From positions 1 to 33,543 of the IMG/VR virus record IMGVR_UViG_3300025889_000490: DNA of 33,543 nucleotides; one strand, given 5' to 3'. Origin of the DNA: a virus. Shown in pieces: positions 1,793 to 28,300 of this stretch (its first letter is position 1; each line of letters opens with the position of its first letter). The notes under the pieces are model-generated. The model saw nothing but the letters and a program-made list of their open reading frames with translations. It ran no database searches and had not been told where the DNA came from. A program made the translations under genes and the position numbers.

Positions 1793-4700
1793 TTACCCTG
1801 CCGAAATCTTTAACGTTCCGCCATCATTATATATCACCCCTGCTACTTGTGGGTCAGAAGTTGGGAGATTTTTCATTTTAATAATACCCGATAATTCGTT
1901 TTCACTTCTTGTTAGTCTAGCATATTGCGTGTTTGAAGAATTTACAAACAAACCATCAAGAGAAAGCCTTGTTTGACTGTCATAGCTTTTTACTATAATG
2001 TTTTGATTCAATTCAAATTGCGAAGCAAACCCAGTATCATCTGAAAAAACAGTAATGCGTATTTTTACCCAATCATAAGAATAAGAGTGTGCGCTAAATT
2101 TTACAGATACTGTATTGCCCACACTGGTTGCTAGTGAACTAAGAAAAGAACCGAAACTCGTATAACTACCGCCCGAACTTGTAGAGCCTAACGCTTCTAC
2201 TTGAATATAGGCTTCCGAACCATCCGCACCTAAAGAAGTAAGTTCTGCACCCACATCAATATATAATGAATCGCCTTTTGTGGTTTCAAATGCACTTGAT
2301 ATATAAGCCGTTCCTTGATTTATAACAGTCGCATCGCCCGCATTATATTCGCTTGTTTCAGTTAGTGAAAAAGTACCATCATTAACATCTACTTGGGTAC
2401 GTACTCTATCAGCATCTTCTAATTGAATGCGTTGATTAGCCGATTCTACTTTAATACCACCACTTGCATCGGTTGCGTCTAGGGTAAAAGTTGGCACTTT
2501 TATTTCAAAAGAACCTGCCGTTTCATTGTATTCTAAATAATTCGTTCCATCGCCTACCTTGAAGCGTATATCGCCAGTTGATAGTTTCCAAAAATTTTGA
2601 TTTGTAACCGTAGGTGTACTTATCGTTAAACCTTGTTCGTTGGTATTTAATTTACCAAGCGTAACCAAATAACTGCTAGTGCCTATTACTATATTTTCAT
2701 TCGCACTACTTATATCTAGGTTTGTAGTGTTTAAATCAAATGTATCGGTTTGTATATCAAATGAAGAACCATTAAAAGATAGGAAATTAGTGCCATCGCC
2801 TACCTTGAAGGTATTGCTTGTTAATTGTGCAAGTGTGCTAGCTCCATCCTTTAGGAATAGCCCACCATCAGTAACTAAAATATGCTCGTTTGAATTATCC
2901 CCTGCAAAGAAGCCGAATGTTTCCGTACTTAATCCCGAATAGCCGTTTAAATCCCCAAAAGCTACCCTTGTATTTGTTACGGCTTGTAGGTCCGCAAACG
3001 AATTGACTTCTGTTTGAAGTCGCATAATTAGGTTATCTTCCGACCTATCAACATTCCGATACATTATAGCCTGCCTATCAGCATCCGAAACGTTACCGTA
3101 TGCGATAATCAAATCGCCCTGCTCTAATTGTGTAATATCTCCTGCATCAATAGTAACTACAATATCGTTGCCTGATACGCTTGTAACCGTACCTCGAACC
3201 GACTTAACAATAGAACCAGTTCCACCACTTTCTAAATCGTTGTTAATATCTACTACTTGACAAATCCAAAGGTCATTCGCTTTAAAGGCATTTCCTGCCG
3301 TACCCGTAACATTTTCGACCGTAATTGTTTCTGCTCCTACGTTTACGCTTGAAACTCTACCCTGCGCTATACTTAATATCTCCGAACCACCTATCGTACT
3401 AATTTGCTTCGCTATAAACTCATAAACTCGTAATGCTCCACGAATCCTCATTTCTTCAAATTCAGCCGAACCATCTGCGTTTATTTTCCAATTAGTACCT
3501 GCCCACCCTTCAACAAATCCATCGTCTGCTAAATTTGCTTGAGTAGTAAGATTGCCTTGCAGGTTCATTGTGCTATTAAAGTCAGCCTCACCAGTCAAGG
3601 TTAGAGAGCCACCTACGGTTGCATTATTAGTAACCGCTAACGTATCAAAAGTTACACTATCAGAGGTACGAACGTTTTGATTCATTGCATACAACTCGTT
3701 ATCGCCTTGACCAGTATTCAATGTAGGTGCATCTAACGTGCCTGATATGGTAGTATTACCAGTTACGCTTAACGTGCCACCCACTGTCGTACTTCCACTT
3801 ACATCTAATGTGCTTAGTGTAGTTGCTCCAGTTACATCTAGTGTACCGCCTACCATTGCGTTAGTTCCTACATCTACCGTAGTGCCTATTGTTGCACTTG
3901 TTCCTACTTCTAAATAGGTATCTGCTTTTAGGTATGTTCCTGCGTGAATATGTTGGTCTGCATTAATACCATTATCAACGTCTAAACTCGTGCTTATATA
4001 AACTGGATTGTTGAATTTTTCACTAGGGTCAGCATCCCATACTTGAGTTGATGTATTCCATACGATACTCGTAGTGTCTATCTCATCGGTAATTATAGTG
4101 CCAGTGCTTACAATACCATTAAATGTAGGCGTATCACCAGTACCTAGTCCTAAGTTTGTACGGCTAGTATCTACATTATTTACATCACCGAAATTATTTA
4201 AAATACGTAAATATCTAGAGTCAGCTTCAGATTCAGTAAGCCCCTCAGTTTCCGGAGGTGTAACTATTATGCCTTGATTGCCGGACTGGTCTATGCGCTT
4301 TATTGTTGTTAGTGTATCTGTGCCGGTTTGTATATTTATTTGCACAAGTGTTGGCCGCCACCTGCCATTATATGTACCACCTACGTAAGCATAGTAGCTT
4401 CCATCGTACACAGATACATTAACTGGCTCATAGTTGCCAATTATATTTGCATTTATTTTAGTTGGCCTGCTGCGCTGCGTATCTATAACTTCTTTAAGTA
4501 ATAGTTCTTCAAAATTCACATAACTTGCCTGCGAGCGCCGTTTCCAACCAACTGTAATATCTTCTAGGTTAGTACTTGTTCGATAAGCACTTCTACTCCA
4601 AACATAAGGACCATCGCCATAGCGTATTGCGGGTAGTGTTAAATCGTCAGAAGCTACCGCAGTATTCTGCTCTAGCTTATAAACTATACTAGTACTCTCC

Positions 4701-6622
4701 GGATTACTAGGGTCAATAAATTGTACTATTGTATCAAGCCATAATGTTTCATCTATATACCCGCTTGCTATTTCACTTTCAAGAACCCTGGTTGGAAATA
4801 AATGTAGGTTAAGCTCAACTGTTTGGTCGGGCGGTAAGTCAGTAATCTCAAAACTTAAATCACCAACATATTCGGCCAATTTAAGTGTATCAGATAAACC
4901 GCGCACCATGCTTGCTCTTTGCACTGTGTGTGCGCCACTACCTTGATTAGTAAGAGTTATAAAACTACCACCATAACTGTCGCTAATTTGAAATGAATTT
5001 GTACTGCTATTTACAACATAATAAAACGTATCAGCATCTATGCCACCAGGTAAACTGCCACCAGTATTTGTAAAAATTACCAACTGTCCATCTTTTAAAC
5101 CATGGCCAGTAAAATCTACACTGTCTGTTGTTGTGTTTATATTTGCAGCAGTAAGGTTTATTATACTACTACTCATGCCAGTGTAACTAAGCCCAGGCGT
5201 TAAAAAACTACCAGTGCCAGTATCTAAAAAGTTTGCACCTAGTGTTAAAGCAAACTCCGCATTTTTTAAAGTTACTTCTTCTATGGTAAGTACTTTACTA
5301 GCACTGCCCGCGCCGCCATCACTTGTAATATCTACCGGGTTATTTAAACGGTTAGGAAAGGTATCAAAATAGTATTCATCACCGCCATAAGGTTTAGCAT
5401 AGTAAGTAACACCGGAAGAAAGCCCACCAGGAAGAGCGCCAACATTATTTTCAAATCTTACTTTTTGGTCTATACTTAAACCCGGTGTAACATCTATTGT
5501 ATCTGTACTTATATCTACATCAGCATTGCTAAATACATCGTAATTATTATAAGGCACAGTAACACGGCTAATATTTCTAGCGGTAAAAATAATGCTTTCA
5601 TCACCACTTAGCCTCACATTCATTGTGTATTTTTGCTCACTTGGGCTGCTTATGGTTACAGTTTGTGGCACTGTAATGTTTGCATTTAAACTCTTATGGT
5701 CAAACTCTACTGTCGCGCTTTGTAAGGCAGGATAGGTAGTTACTTGGCTACTATCAATTAAAACTGGTAGCCCTAAATCTTTATCGGTGTAAATAGTTTG
5801 CTCTAAATCTACAGTTACAACACCTGCTGCCGTACCATTTAATTGATAATCACCTCTTACAACATTTTGACTATCCTCAAATGCGCTTAACTGTATTACA
5901 TTAAATGCACCGTTCATCTGATAGATTAACAACTGAGGAGCGGCAGTATATTTTAAGGCATCATATACGCTTATACTTGTATCAGTTTCATTACCTTGGC
6001 GGCCATAGTTTCTAAGTTGTATAGTATCGTGATATACTTGATTTAAAAAATCATCTGTAAGCGTTGTTCCCTGAGCCTGCCAACTAGTAAAAGTACGTAG
6101 CACATTACCGGTATAACGCAAAGAATCTAAACCCAGTTGACTTATTAAGTCGGCAATAGTTTGAATTACTTTTTGCCGGTTATCTGTTGGCGTATATTCT
6201 TGTGTCTTTAATACTTCAAAATCTTTAAACTGTAATTTAGCAAGATATTTTTCCTTCTCCGGGTAACTTAATATCCTTCCGCTTGCATAGCCCTGCCATA
6301 GTATATTACCAGTTGTCCCCTGCGCCCATTGTATGTAGTATTCTTTTTTGCTACCAGTTTTTATATCCTCTATTAGTTGCTTTGTGCTTGCATCTTTACC
6401 CCAAACATTCCAGTCAAGCACACCCATTAAAATTTTATTGTAAGTAGGGTTTAAATAACCCTCGTTACTATCGGAAGAAATTTCCTGGTGTTTAAAAGTA
6501 AACCCAGTACTATCGGTTATCTGTAAGCTAGAGCCAGTGTAACCATCCTGGTAAATATGTAGGTAGTCTGTAACATCGTTATGATTTTTAGTACTCCAAT
6601 ATGCTCTTAGTCCGTATGCCAT
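1793..6622 (-). CDS. Large tail-tip/baseplate protein with fibre-like repeats
   Basis: A 1609-residue protein starting one base after the tape-measure stop. Residues 1-350 look like a tail-hub domain (distal-tail or gpJ-like position). Residues about 371-446 and 498-568 are two copies of a module with LPGG(L/I), then YY, at 397-400 and 524-527. A low-complexity stretch at about 900-1050 repeats short TxGGTL or TxxGTL units and probably forms a fibrous shaft. The following part (RVYEFIAKQI) resembles the conserved C-terminal half of tail proteins in Bacteroidota phages. Size and position directly after the tape measure fit a central tail-tip protein that holds fibres and contacts the cell. The precise split between hub, fibre and any enzymatic part cannot be seen; I found no lysin motif. 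Confidence 0.8.
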   Translation of the reverse strand: MAYGLRAYWSTKNHNDVTDYLHIYQDGYTGSSLQITDSTGFTFKHQEISSDSNEGYLNPTYNKILMGVLDWNVWGKDASTKQLIEDIKTGSKKEYYIQWAQGTTGNILWQGYASGRILSYPEKEKYLAKLQFKDFEVLKTQEYTPTDNRQKVIQTIADLISQLGLDSLRYTGNVLRTFTSWQAQGTTLTDDFLNQVYHDTIQLRNYGRQGNETDTSISVYDALKYTAAPQLLIYQMNGAFNVIQLSAFEDSQNVVRGDYQLNGTAAGVVTVDLEQTIYTDKDLGLPVLIDSSQVTTYPALQSATVEFDHKSLNANITVPQTVTISSPSEQKYTMNVRLSGDESIIFTARNISRVTVPYNNYDVFSNADVDISTDTIDVTPGLSIDQKVRFENNVGALPGGLSSGVTYYAKPYGGDEYYFDTFPNRLNNPVDITSDGGAGSASKVLTIEEVTLKNAEFALTLGANFLDTGTGSFLTPGLSYTGMSSSIINLTAANINTTTDSVDFTGHGLKDGQLVIFTNTGGSLPGGIDADTFYYVVNSSTNSFQISDSYGGSFITLTNQGSGAHTVQRASMVRGLSDTLKLAEYVGDLSFEITDLPPDQTVELNLHLFPTRVLESEIASGYIDETLWLDTIVQFIDPSNPESTSIVYKLEQNTAVASDDLTLPAIRYGDGPYVWSRSAYRTSTNLEDITVGWKRRSQASYVNFEELLLKEVIDTQRSRPTKINANIIGNYEPVNVSVYDGSYYAYVGGTYNGRWRPTLVQINIQTGTDTLTTIKRIDQSGNQGIIVTPPETEGLTESEADSRYLRILNNFGDVNNVDTSRTNLGLGTGDTPTFNGIVSTGTIITDEIDTTSIVWNTSTQVWDADPSEKFNNPVYISTSLDVDNGINADQHIHAGTYLKADTYLEVGTSATIGTTVDVGTNAMVGGTLDVTGATTLSTLDVSGSTTVGGTLSVTGNTTISGTLDAPTLNTGQGDNELYAMNQNVRTSDSVTFDTLAVTNNATVGGSLTLTGEADFNSTMNLQGNLTTQANLADDGFVEGWAGTNWKINADGSAEFEEMRIRGALRVYEFIAKQISTIGGSEILSIAQGRVSSVNVGAETITVENVTGTAGNAFKANDLWICQVVDINNDLESGGTGSIVKSVRGTVTSVSGNDIVVTIDAGDITQLEQGDLIIAYGNVSDADRQAIMYRNVDRSEDNLIMRLQTEVNSFADLQAVTNTRVAFGDLNGYSGLSTETFGFFAGDNSNEHILVTDGGLFLKDGASTLAQLTSNTFKVGDGTNFLSFNGSSFDIQTDTFDLNTTNLDISSANENIVIGTSSYLVTLGKLNTNEQGLTISTPTVTNQNFWKLSTGDIRFKVGDGTNYLEYNETAGSFEIKVPTFTLDATDASGGIKVESANQRIQLEDADRVRTQVDVNDGTFSLTETSEYNAGDATVINQGTAYISSAFETTKGDSLYIDVGAELTSLGADGSEAYIQVEALGSTSSGGSYTSFGSFLSSLATSVGNTVSVKFSAHSYSYDWVKIRITVFSDDTGFASQFELNQNIIVKSYDSQTRLSLDGLFVNSSNTQYARLTRSENELSGIIKMKNLPTSDPQVAGVIYNDGGTLKISAG

Positions 6623-16181: not shown

Positions 16182-16809
16182 CTAACTCGTTCTGCCTGGT
16201 GTTTTTTTGCTCCCTGCGGTGTATGCTGCCACGCAGGTGGCTTTCTGCGCTCTTTATCCAAAAAATTTTATGCTGCAAACATATAATCCGCACACCTTTT
16301 TTTGCCAGTTCTAGCGCCGCCATTAAATCGCTCATTCTATAATCTTGCCAGGTAGTTGCATCAAATTTTATAGTGTCTGTGTGGAACGCGCTAACACCAG
16401 TGCCCGGCACATCTATTTGGTAATCACCATCAACATTACGTAAACACTGGTATGTTATATGGCCAGTATAATAAGGCAGGTTAAGACCGCGCAACTTGCG
16501 GCCATGAAATGTAAGCCATGTGCCTGGGTATTTTTTTAGCGCGCGTTTTATTGTAGCCACATAGTCGGGTGGGTAATATAAATCATCATCGCAGCTTAGG
16601 TAAATGCCCTTGCTTTGTGGTAGCCAAAAAAATTTAGCGTTATCGGTATAGTCTGTACCAGTATATACTTTAACATTATCGCCTTTTAATTTGGGTGTGT
16701 AGTCATTACCATATACCCGCACGGTATCAACTTGGTGTCTTAGGCTATCTACTACACCTTGCAGGGTAGATTTCCGCGCTTCTATTGTGGCAAGGTTAGC
16801 AGTAATCAT
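16144..16809 (-). CDS. Glycosyltransferase, GT-A fold
   Basis: A 221-residue protein resembling family 2-like glycosyltransferases. The N-terminus (MITANLATIEARKSTLQGVV) matches the nucleotide-sugar binding start, and LSCDDDLYYPPDYV holds the metal-binding DxD-type acidic cluster at residues 74-76. It would transfer a sugar from a nucleotide donor to an unknown acceptor in the cytoplasm. It is the last gene of a tight four-gene island inside the head genes and overlaps the FkbM-type gene by 4 bases (ATGA). Candidate acceptors are capsid, tail or host surface polysaccharide. No membrane segment is visible. Confidence 0.8.
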   Translation of the reverse strand: MITANLATIEARKSTLQGVVDSLRHQVDTVRVYGNDYTPKLKGDNVKVYTGTDYTDNAKFFWLPQSKGIYLSCDDDLYYPPDYVATIKRALKKYPGTWLTFHGRKLRGLNLPYYTGHITYQCLRNVDGDYQIDVPGTGVSAFHTDTIKFDATTWQDYRMSDLMAALELAKKGVRIICLQHKIFWIKSAESHLRGSIHRREQKNTRQNELANVVHSLVSNNK

Positions 16810-17369
16810 TTTAGCACCGCTATGTAATCACTTTTGTATTGGCGCACTTTGTAACCGGAGCGCATTAGTCTGTTTTTTACTTTAGCTATATCCCCTGGCC
16901 TGGTAAGGTGGTTAGCTTCGAACACAATATTTTCGGGCTTAATGTTTACCGTATCTAAAAAGTCGTTAAGTATAATACAGTCGTGGCCTTCGGTATCTAT
17001 TTTTAACGTGGTAATTTTTTTTATTTTATGTTTTTGCAGCACTGTTTTTATACGCTCAACCTTTACCTCAGATTTTTTTATATACTGCAAACCTGCCTGG
17101 CCAAGCTTGTTTATAAGAAGCCCAGTAATTGTTGGGTGTGGTTTATTAACAGAGTTACAACCCCTGGCCCATTTAGGCAGGCCTAAAAGTTCTATATCTT
17201 CCGGCTGCATATAATAAACCCATAGCGTTCCTCTGTAATTGCTTATGGCTATGTTTTCTTTTCTGCATGCAGGCAATAAATCATAATAGCATTTTACTGG
17301 CTCTATAAATAGCCCATCTTCTAAGCCTGCTCTAGTTCTAAAATCGCTTGTGCCTATTTCGACTATCAT
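16806..17369 (-). CDS. FkbM-family methyltransferase
   Basis: A 187-residue protein with the FkbM-type SAM-methyltransferase pattern: IVEIGTSDF at residues 2-10 as glycine motif I, and the diagnostic KIDTEGHD at 123-130. Family members methylate hydroxyl groups, often of sugars or polyketides. It is on the short side and has a variant motif I with one glycine, but the core is present. It sits between the small membrane protein and a glycosyltransferase, with 2 bases upstream and a 4-base overlap downstream. The four genes are likely made together and may produce a methylated sugar. Confidence 0.85.
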   Translation of the reverse strand: MIVEIGTSDFRTRAGLEDGLFIEPVKCYYDLLPACRKENIAISNYRGTLWVYYMQPEDIELLGLPKWARGCNSVNKPHPTITGLLINKLGQAGLQYIKKSEVKVERIKTVLQKHKIKKITTLKIDTEGHDCIILNDFLDTVNIKPENIVFEANHLTRPGDIAKVKNRLMRSGYKVRQYKSDYIAVLK

Positions 17370-25139: not shown

Positions 25140-25482
25140 AAGTTACATTCGTAATTTTCTCACCTTCACTAGTGTGGTCGTGGTGCTGCATACTTAAAGC
25201 CTTCCTTTCTTCATCGGTACATATAAGCTTGTATAAAGCCAGTAACCCAGTTGGTGATGTACTTTTATGTAATTTAGAACGTATGCTTATCTTAGTACGT
25301 GCTTTATTTTTATCTAACTCTTCTTTTATAGCGTTTGATTCGTCTGATTCCAAAGGGAAATGCCTATAAAAAGTATCTTTACTAATACCTAAATAAGCAA
25401 GAACATCAGCCACAAAGAATAAGTTGTATTCTTTAATTACGCCAAGGGCATCTTTATATAAATCTTCAGTCTTATACGCCAT
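25105..25482 (-). CDS. terS: Terminase small subunit (probable)
   Basis: A 125-residue protein from MAYKTEDLYKDALGVI. The N-terminal part has a helix-turn-helix look (ADVLAYLGISKDTFYRHF), followed by a charged helix and a second helical stretch (GLLALYKLICTDEERKALS) that recalls oligomerisation segments of small terminases in Bacteroidota phages. Overlap with terL by 35 bases and the HTH support the call. It would recognise the packaging site. The upstream neighbour is the methyltransferase fusion, with an 11-base overlap, so DNA marking and packaging are co-expressed. Confidence 0.78.
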   Translation of the reverse strand: MAYKTEDLYKDALGVIKEYNLFFVADVLAYLGISKDTFYRHFPLESDESNAIKEELDKNKARTKISIRSKLHKSTSPTGLLALYKLICTDEERKALSMQHHDHTSEGEKITNVTFEYVKPQDSDK

Positions 25483-26566
25483 AGGGTTCACCGTTAATTT
25501 TTACTTCTAACGTATCATCTAGCTTGACCATTCGGTCTATTATAACTTGGCAGTATTTAGGGTCTAACTCCATACCGTAGCATTTACGTTTGAGTTGGTG
25601 TGATGCTACCATTGTTGAGCCACTTCCTAGAAACAAATCAATAGTGGTATTACATTTTTTATCTTTCAATATATCTACAATCAATGATATTGGCTTTGGA
25701 GTTGGGTGATAACCTTGCTCTGCTCTATTGTTTTCTCCACCCACATTGTTTACTGAATAGACAATCTGTTCGTGTCTTGTTTTATCATTGTGATAGCAAT
25801 ACATTGTTTCAAAGTGTCCGGCTTGCCAACCGTTTGTTTTATGCCAAATGTGTTTTGAAGTTACCATTTCTGCAAATGGTGGAAATTGTAAATTATCCCA
25901 AAACCATATCATCAATCCATTGCAGTAGATTCTTGAATTGTTAAATGCACCCTCTATATTATTTATCATATCGTGCATTATTTCACTATTGTTCGGAAAT
26001 GGCGGGTCTGTAAATACCATGTCCGCTTTTTCTCCATTCATAAGTTTAGCCACTTGGTCGCTATCGGTACTATCTCCGCACAATAGTCGATGTGGGCCAA
26101 TCTCGATTAAATCGCCCAGCACTACATCAACCTTTATATCATCAGGTTCTTCATAATCATCCTCCTTTGCTTCTACTTCTTCAGCTTCTATATCCCCGAA
26201 TAGTTCTTCATTACTAAAACCCCAGTCAGTAAGTTCCTCAACCTCGAAATAATTAGCTAGGGCATCGTAATCCCAAGCACCCGTATTTTTATTAAGCCGA
26301 ATGTTAAGTTCTCGTTCCTTATCACGGTCTAGTTCTACTTCTACACACGGAAAGGTATCCCACCCTAGGCTTTGTGCAGTCTTTAACCTTTGGTGTCCAC
26401 CTACTATAATATTTTTACGGTCTGGGTGTGTGTTTATAATAGCTGGGTCAACCGCCCCAAATCTTTGCAAGCTTGCTTTTAACTGTTCGGCCTGCTCATT
26501 GCTTAGCTGCCTTGGGTTGTATTCAGCTGGTATCAGTTCGTTAATTTTTCGCTCAATTACTTTCAT
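25472..26566 (-). CDS. ParB-like / DNA adenine methyltransferase fusion
   Basis: A 364-residue two-domain protein. Residues 1-110 are a ParB/Srx-type domain (INELIPAEYNPRQL, and IIVGGHQRLKTAQ near 53-65). Residues 147-350 are an amino-methyltransferase with motif IV DPPF at 187-190 before motif I FLGSGST at 312-318, the order of the beta class. An acidic linker (126-143) joins them. Such fusions are common in phages and act as orphan modifying enzymes. The ParB part may bind DNA or nucleotide. The gene lies between an unknown replication-region protein and terS and overlaps both, which may link methylation to replication or packaging. Confidence 0.92.
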   Translation of the reverse strand: MKVIERKINELIPAEYNPRQLSNEQAEQLKASLQRFGAVDPAIINTHPDRKNIIVGGHQRLKTAQSLGWDTFPCVEVELDRDKERELNIRLNKNTGAWDYDALANYFEVEELTDWGFSNEELFGDIEAEEVEAKEDDYEEPDDIKVDVVLGDLIEIGPHRLLCGDSTDSDQVAKLMNGEKADMVFTDPPFPNNSEIMHDMINNIEGAFNNSRIYCNGLMIWFWDNLQFPPFAEMVTSKHIWHKTNGWQAGHFETMYCYHNDKTRHEQIVYSVNNVGGENNRAEQGYHPTPKPISLIVDILKDKKCNTTIDLFLGSGSTMVASHQLKRKCYGMELDPKYCQVIIDRMVKLDDTLEVKINGEPYGV

Positions 26567-27101: not shown

Positions 27102-27761
27102 TTAAAAAGGCCTCTGCATTTTTTTGTTTTCCTTGTTTTTGAATTCTATGTACTTGTTAGCCCAAGTACCTGCTCTGTACTTCCAGTTGGTAATTTTATT
27201 ACCTGCATGCATCCAGTTAGTGGCTTCGTAGTAATTAACAAAATTCTCTGCTTCTAATGCTATATCATGTTCATTTATCTTACCGTTTTTAGTAAAATAA
27301 TTTTCTACCTCAACTTGCGTGGGATACACACTAGGAGCATTATTTTCATTCTTTACATTCTTTTCATTCTTAGTAGTTGTTAGTTGTGTGTTAGTTGTGT
27401 GTTGCTCGTGTGTTAGCCGTGTGTTACCTGGTGTGTTAGTTTCCTCATCATCACCCTGGTAAGTATCGTAATTGCAAACACTTATAATAGTTCCATGTGT
27501 GTTACTTAGTCTGTTGATTTCTCCGGTGCTTTGTAATTTACGTAAAACCGTTCTTAAACTTTGTTTACTAAGTTGCAATTCATACGCTAGTACATCTAGG
27601 CTAGTTATAAAAGTGCCACGCTTAACCAGTGTGCCTCTGTACTTTTTATCTTTGTGGTTAGCTTTTAAAAGGCAGTGAAGAAAAACCCTAGTGCAGTTGG
27701 GTTCATCATACCATTCCCAATCTAAAAACTGTCTATGTAATTTTATCCAACCTTTGTTCAT
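27102..27761 (-). CDS. DnaD-like replication initiator / replisome organizer
   Basis: A 219-residue protein with a winged-helix N-terminus typical of phage replisome organizers: GWIKLHRQFLDWEWYDEPN at 4-22, LLKANHKDKKYRGTLVKRG, and LSKQSLRTVLRKLQSTGEI in the recognition-helix region. A low-complexity Thr/Asn linker (about 105-143, with TNTQLTTTKNEKN) leads to a C-terminal DnaB_2-like part (FVNYYEATNWMHAGNKI and NWKYRAGTW). It probably binds the phage origin and recruits the helicase. The origin could lie within this gene or in the structured 140-base leader just before it. No helicase gene is visible, so host DnaB is likely used. Confidence 0.85.
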   Translation of the reverse strand: MNKGWIKLHRQFLDWEWYDEPNCTRVFLHCLLKANHKDKKYRGTLVKRGTFITSLDVLAYELQLSKQSLRTVLRKLQSTGEINRLSNTHGTIISVCNYDTYQGDDEETNTPGNTRLTHEQHTTNTQLTTTKNEKNVKNENNAPSVYPTQVEVENYFTKNGKINEHDIALEAENFVNYYEATNWMHAGNKITNWKYRAGTWANKYIEFKNKENKKMQRPF

Positions 27762-27870
27762 AATCTATTAAAAAAGGGAACGCCTTTAGGTTGTACGCTA
27801 ACCGGCCAGGCATTCCCCTTGTTAGGAGAGGTCACAATGTATGCGTAGCGTACACGCTTAAATAGTAACC
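27762..27870 (-). ncRNA. Structured leader RNA, possible attenuator, of the replication gene
   Basis: A 140-base gap in an otherwise packed operon. The minus-strand RNA folds in parts. GGUUAC pairs with GUGACC around an inner hairpin, GUGUACG/CGCAUAC. UCUCC can pair with GGGGA, the 5' arm of the terminator stem. UGUACGCUA (27846-27854) is a perfect 9-base complement of UAGCGUACA (27792-27800) in the terminator's apical loop. A weak -7 element, TAACTTTA, lies at 27877-27884. This fits an attenuator or riboregulator; an origin with inverted repeats is the alternative. I match it to no known riboswitch class. Confidence 0.5.
27770..27820 (-). terminator. Intrinsic terminator within the leader
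   Basis: AAGGGGAATGCC pairs with GGCGTTCCCTT (about 10-12 pairs with G-U), closing an inner GGTT/AACC hairpin, and runs into six T. It ends about 9 bases before the ATG at 27761. It separates SSB from the initiator gene, yet any transcript of the initiator must pass it. Confidence 0.75.
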
Positions 27871-27901
27871 TTGCATTAAAGTTATAATAATTTTTCACAA
27901 A

Positions 27902-28300
27902 TTAAAATGGCAGCCCATCTTCTATATCGTTTAAATCAATATTTATTGGAATGGGTGTCTGCTTTTGTGGCCCTACATTGTTATGCTCGCTCGTTTTCTG
28001 TCCGCTTATTAAGTGTAAACGGTTAGCAAGTATTTTTGTTTTTACCTTGGTTTGACCATTGGCATCATATTTATCATAAGTTACACAGCCTTCTATGCAA
28101 ACTTGCTCGCCTTTTTTCACATAGTTACCGGCTACCTCTGCTGTCTTGTTAAAGCATACAACGTTGTGCCAATCAGTAATTGCCTCACCGCTTGCATATC
28201 TATTTGTAGCCAGTGAAAACCTACATACCGCCACACCACTTTTTGAGTAAATAAGTTCCGGGTCTTGGCCAACTCGGCCCATTAGTGTTACATTATTCAT
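27902..28300 (-). CDS. ssb: Single-stranded DNA-binding protein
   Basis: A 132-residue SSB. The OB-fold start is MNNVTLMGRVGQDPELIYSK, followed by GVAVCRFSLATNRY, WHNVVCFNKTAEVAGNYVKK and GEQVCIEGCVTYDKY. The C-terminus keeps the acidic tip DIEDGLPF, which recruits partners such as recombination and repair proteins. It is shorter than typical bacterial SSB (about 170) because the glycine-rich linker is reduced, as is common in phages. It overlaps the NinG stop by 4 bases (ATGA) and works with ERF and NinG in recombination-dependent replication. Confidence 0.95.
   Translation of the reverse strand: MNNVTLMGRVGQDPELIYSKSGVAVCRFSLATNRYASGEAITDWHNVVCFNKTAEVAGNYVKKGEQVCIEGCVTYDKYDANGQTKVKTKILANRLHLISGQKTSEHNNVGPQKQTPIPINIDLNDIEDGLPF

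Follow-up and report, generated by a model that had tools for sequence, protein, structure and literature searches.

A putative self-terminating kissing-loop leader RNA upstream of replication-initiator genes in Bacteroidetes phages

The window, that is, the whole stretch of viral DNA analyzed (33,543 nt), carries on its minus strand the ssb gene, encoding a single-strand DNA-binding protein (27902–28300; PF00436, E = 3e-29; phrog_44, E = 9e-37), followed by a gene encoding a DnaD-like helicase loader (27102–27761; phrog_2514, E = 2e-32). The spacer between them is 140 nt long. A preliminary description had pointed to this gap before an initiator gene as the site of a structured leader RNA whose terminator lies hard against the start of the replication gene, and the gap and all the features named in it were confirmed in place on the minus strand. 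Concerning the rest of the window, one ORF (25472–26566, minus strand) fuses a ParB N-terminal domain to an N6/N4 DNA methylase domain, and a 1609-aa ORF in the structural region (1793–6622, minus strand) has no PHROG match at E 0.001. Neither an integrase nor a repressor turned up among the window ORFs scanned against PHROGs.

The RNA of the spacer presents two hairpins joined by a short linker. Hairpin 1 (27830–27870, minus strand) is formed by the closing stem GGUUAC/GUGACC, the inner stem GCGU/ACGC, and a 7-nt loop, GUACGCU. The second one is an intrinsic terminator hairpin (27776–27820, minus strand), and 8 nt separate the end of its U-tract (27770–27775, minus strand) from the start codon of dnaD. 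The minimum free energy (MFE) structure of the window RNA contains the closing stem, the inner hairpin, and the terminator; hairpin 1 has the same architecture in relatives, and wherever a near relative has a spacer, a terminator occupies the same place in it. The spacer RNA folds at −42.2 kcal/mol (z = −2.9), and none of 200 shuffled sequences was equally stable, while the opposite strand gave z = −1.1 in the same test. Both the structured leader and the position of the terminator next to the start codon are borne out.

The loops of the two hairpins are complementary to each other. The 5' kissing strand, UGUACGCUA (27846–27854, minus strand), comprises the loop of hairpin 1 and its flanking pair, and the 3' kissing strand, UAGCGUACA (27792–27800, minus strand), lies in the apical loop of the terminator (AGCGUAC, 7 nt), where 7 of the 7 core bases are unpaired in the window MFE. 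The 9-nt complement reported previously (TGTACGCTA/TAGCGTACA) is exact. When the window leader was shuffled, a complementary run of at least 9 nt arose with P = 0.014, which is modestly unlikely on its own and leaves some room for an ordinary terminator of the upstream operon next to an unrelated hairpin, with a complement due to chance. Since the window complement alone does not go beyond this value, the case for kissing rests on the relatives.

Related phage contigs were collected by DnaD queries. In some of the nearest relatives (L004, L005, and L008–L011) there is no spacer and dnaD begins within about 2 nt of the ssb stop, as expected if the element is an optional regulatory module. In the other nearest relatives, the ssb-dnaD spacer has the same two-hairpin architecture with different sequences. 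In fact, the kissing pair is AUGCAGG/CCUGCAU in L007, GGUACAA/UUGUACC in L018, and UGGGCAUA/UAUGCCCA in L026, so the complement is kept with other letters, which speaks against chance for the window itself. For the class, chance is already refuted: the covariation, the fixed promoter spacing, and the recurrence in many phages described below stand against a fortuitous complement, and this explanation is the least credible of those considered, being hardly tenable.

The 31 elements compared have 31 different kissing sequences. The complementarity between the two loops of each element ranges from 6 to 10 nt, with at least 7 Watson-Crick pairs in 30 of the 31, and only 5.3% of the cross-pairs between elements reach at least 7. 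When the best terminator upstream of DnaD was taken at each locus, and complementarity was not selected on, 56 of 86 loci presented an 8- or 9-nt complement. A strict scan returned 34 distinct matches in 3.2 Mb versus 9 in 6.3 Mb of shuffled sequence. A looser scan of whole contigs gave 66 matches versus 48 in shuffles, so scan matches alone are no evidence unless a promoter, position, or covariation accompanies them. Regarding accessibility, both loops are wholly or mostly single-stranded in 6 of 7 examples in plain MFE folds, which are blind to pseudoknots; the exception is L018, where the hairpin 1 side is mostly paired. No model or kissing-terminator match was found in Vibrio phages with DnaD proteins up to 57% identical to those of family A, the set of relatives used for covariation.

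Family A consists of 37 distinct sequences (alignment A1), which were scored against a named structure. Pairing in the loop-loop helix reaches 98.6%, and 6 of its 8 pairs show double changes; covariation is likewise seen in the stems of both hairpins. The whole-structure covariation score was 0.680, compared with 0.217 in column shuffles, a control that ignores relatedness, and with 0.133 or less when the partner was slid; both the slide control and the number of different pair types give a clear result. G-U pairs occupy 2 of 296 cells in the kissing helix versus 56 of 331 in the outer terminator stem. Covariation among relatives had been proposed in the preliminary description as a check, and it came out in favor of the loop pairing. 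Comparison of sequences in this way establishes the anatomy of the predicted RNA, its kissing helix, and its terminator.

The window itself would be a member of this proposed class of kissing-loop terminator RNAs by its architecture, its position, and its loop matching, given that its hairpin 1 loop is complementary over at least 7 nt to the apical loop of the terminator. This membership is not one of sequence homology, since the family-A covariance model (R1) found no match in the window at E up to 5.

The preliminary description had also proposed competing pairings in the layout of an attenuator or riboregulator, where a UCUCC segment could sequester the GGGGA of the terminator. This pairing does exist in the window, but the relatives L006, L007, and L018 lack it. 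Hairpin 1, the terminator, and the loop-loop helix are compatible with one another and can form simultaneously. An analogous pairing between the linker and the terminator arm was considered in family A and rejected, as its covariation was not above that of shuffles, and no covarying, mutually exclusive (antiterminator) fold was found. The idea of competing alternatives is therefore not supported, and a classical attenuator switch between exclusive folds is not favored because all the helices can coexist.

A candidate sigma-A −7 box, TAACTTTA, is located at 27877–27884 (minus strand), with a predicted transcription start at about 27872. It agrees with TAnnTTTG at 5 of 6 positions, an imperfect and weaker kind of match. 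Perfect copies of TAnnTTTG, the sigma-A motif of Bacteroidetes, were found in 52 of 64 related-locus elements no more than 45 nt upstream of the kissing strand (3% by chance), and the distance between box and kissing strand is nearly constant, mostly 9–11 nt. In flavobacteria this box lies at −12 to −5 relative to the start (PMC9723704), which would place +1 at the foot of hairpin 1. Hence, the predicted family-A transcript begins at hairpin 1 and measures about 95 nt, a start position that follows from comparing the related loci. Furthermore, the U-tract is followed by the next start codon at a median of 16 nt, and within 35 nt in 94% of 62 elements. This leaves no room for a second promoter, so the downstream gene would be expressed by read-through only. 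In these 62 elements as well as in the window, a terminator stands between the promoter and the start codon, as in an attenuator in the broad sense.

These features lead to a reading that is held with somewhat better than even confidence: the element may be a self-terminating leader RNA, tied by a private kissing helix, that works as a transcription attenuator close to the promoter, acting on early phage genes and chiefly on those for replication initiators. Transcription would begin at or just before hairpin 1, which would fold first, and the terminator hairpin would be next. The two loops would then pair through 7–9 Watson-Crick pairs to give one compact kissing complex. Most transcripts would stop at the terminator, leaving a stable RNA of about 95–110 nt, and the initiator protein would be made only from the transcripts that read through, so that the element could limit or time replication. 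The RNA is presumably made, and the kissing would act in cis to strengthen or tune termination and to meter the supply of initiator.

An element with its own promoter and terminator, and with helices that are all compatible with one finished fold, could also be a stand-alone small RNA with another job, such as protein binding or regulation of host genes. It would then lie before dnaD by happenstance, and the kissing would provide compactness or stability. The unpaired segments of family A are more conserved than the paired ones (ACAnnATA in loop 1, an AAGGnATTATT linker, and a tandem G-A in the terminator), which would be consistent with such a role; however, no such conserved segments are apparent in the window type. 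In addition, the gene that follows begins in nearly all cases no more than a few tens of nucleotides away, which makes the RNA a leader too, and the element recurs before initiators of unrelated families. A small RNA of this kind is therefore a rather improbable account.

Regarding the genes downstream, most of them encode replication initiators that belong to several unrelated families: DnaD-like loaders, the phrog_428 replication initiation protein in Flavobacterium phage FCL-2, and an O-like/primosomal protein in Tenacibaculum phage Gundel_1. A role of the predicted attenuator in the regulation of replication is plausible from its position in the leader, where read-through would be obligatory and initiators of unrelated families follow. 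On the other hand, an exclusive link with replication is at odds with the elements that precede other genes. Five contigs carry two elements each, with loops that do not match between the two, and the second copy precedes an antirepressor gene in Gundel_1, a gene for a ParB-like protein in L257, and a helicase/methyltransferase gene in L264. In L063, the second copy is followed by a small ORF and then by a putative thymidylate synthase gene (taken to be such from its sequence).

The vicinity of ssb and initiator genes would also suit a part of the replication origin, acting as a primer RNA or through transcriptional activation of the origin. Nevertheless, close relatives can dispense with the element, some phages carry a second one before antirepressor, ParB-like, or other genes, and the many G-U pairs of the outer terminator stem indicate pairing of RNA rather than of DNA. 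This makes an origin function very unlikely.

Elements of this kind are present, unannotated, in cultured phages, where they lie between annotated genes. Gundel_1 carries two (16772–16894 and 33886–34001), Cellulophaga phage phi18:3 one (3074–3188, minus strand), FCL-2 one (37470–37588), and Flavobacterium phage 11b one (33616–33726). The last two are weak model matches (E = 0.01 and 0.025, respectively), backed by the loop match and the promoter box. Among host genomes, R1 matched 4 of 400 in one order and 0 of 396 in another, with one copy each, in a scan where stricter filters lose weak matches and the model covers family A only. One of these matches, in Sphingobacterium psychroaquaticum (L320/L390), is upstream of dnaD-like genes, and the surroundings of the matches look like early regions of phages or prophages. 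A terminator style common to the hosts was thus rejected in favor of a phage element, given the approximately one copy per genome at most and the phage-like contexts.

The two loops of each element are complementary, so any two copies of it can also pair with each other, and this opens a second explanation. The released RNA would pair through its loops with a nascent copy of the same element and change its termination, providing dosage feedback, superinfection immunity, or incompatibility. The pairing is private, with cross-pairs at the level of chance, in the five contigs that carry two elements the loops differ between them, and the elements precede replication initiators and an antirepressor, all of which would suit such a function. 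Moreover, in satellite phage P4 the replication genes are kept off by premature termination that depends on the CI RNA (PMC4825925). However, the loops of family A diverge at about the same rate as the stems, with no sign of the diversifying selection that specificity would bring, and for this reason this explanation is ranked second. The element is also found in phages not known as temperate, the 9-mers of the window occur in the phage genome only within the element, with no separate target sites, and pairing in cis accounts for the covariation equally well. Action in trans is accordingly possible, although it is considered doubtful. Equally tentative is the proposal, in its wider form, of a self-recognizing RNA switch with a private loop pair, in which only its own terminated RNA would pair with the nascent copy and set termination ahead of the replication genes.

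Among known systems, the likeness to the P4 CI RNA (and to the structurally related IsrK/SeqA RNAs) lies in a short leader-derived RNA of a phage replication operon, in complementary segments within one leader, and in termination before the genes. The complement is arranged differently: the P4 RNA is a processing product whose partners, seqA and seqC, are located at other places in the leader, whereas the present element would be one unit from promoter to terminator whose partner is the terminator's own apical loop. The host phylum also differs, and in the present element action in trans is putative.

The statement in the preliminary description that no described RNA class fits holds against Rfam 15, which gave no gathering match in the window; in five related loci nothing matched even when E values up to 1 were allowed, and a permissive search returned only a spurious 14-nt fragment of sR7 (E = 5) near the window element. 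The C4 antisense RNA of P1/P7-like phages (RF01695) is a small phage RNA upstream of an antirepressor, and its pairing partners are sequences close to the ribosome-binding site downstream. One Gundel_1 element also precedes an antirepressor gene, and the window element and most others precede replication genes. The Rfam search of the window and related loci gave no RF01695 match. In Gundel_1, the kissing terminator of the element at 33886–34001 (L400) ends about 14 nt before the annotated antirepressor gene, recalling c4/ant of P1.

Countertranscript attenuation of plasmid rep genes (pT181 and pIP501 type) also places a terminator in the leader of a replication initiator. In the 62 elements, however, no TAnnTTTG enrichment was observed on the opposite strand around the terminator, and here there is no covarying alternative fold, so a countertranscript-driven attenuator was rejected for want of an antisense promoter signal opposite the leader. 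In purine, lysine, and cobalamin riboswitches, loop-loop pairing connects two hairpins of a 5' leader, an arrangement shared with the present element. In contrast to these riboswitches, the loop sequences here can vary freely provided that the two stay matched, no ligand core is conserved across families, and there is no Rfam match.

The observation is real and larger than the preliminary description had seen. Many Bacteroidetes phages share this design with unrelated but matching sequences, which points to a phage control RNA class undescribed as judged against Rfam 15 and a part of the open-access literature, where no kissing-loop RNA in Bacteroidetes phages was found described. It would be a recurrent, unnamed class in the phages of a phylum for which little is known about phage gene regulation, and it would stand at a decision point, the expression of the replication initiator. 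Its presence in the cultured phages Gundel_1, FCL-2, 11b, and phi18:3 makes it directly testable. A terminator linked to a loop pair that can be rewritten at will would, in addition, provide a simple orthogonal part for RNA control. If self-recognition were true, the element would be an RNA-only sensor of dosage or immunity across phages with unrelated replication initiators.

Finally, in L118 and L119 dnaD is preceded by another kissing element, CCC[GATGCAG]GGG / GGG[CTGCATC]CCC. It sits where family A sits in phages whose DnaD is about 89% identical, which could reflect a possible exchange of modules at one site.
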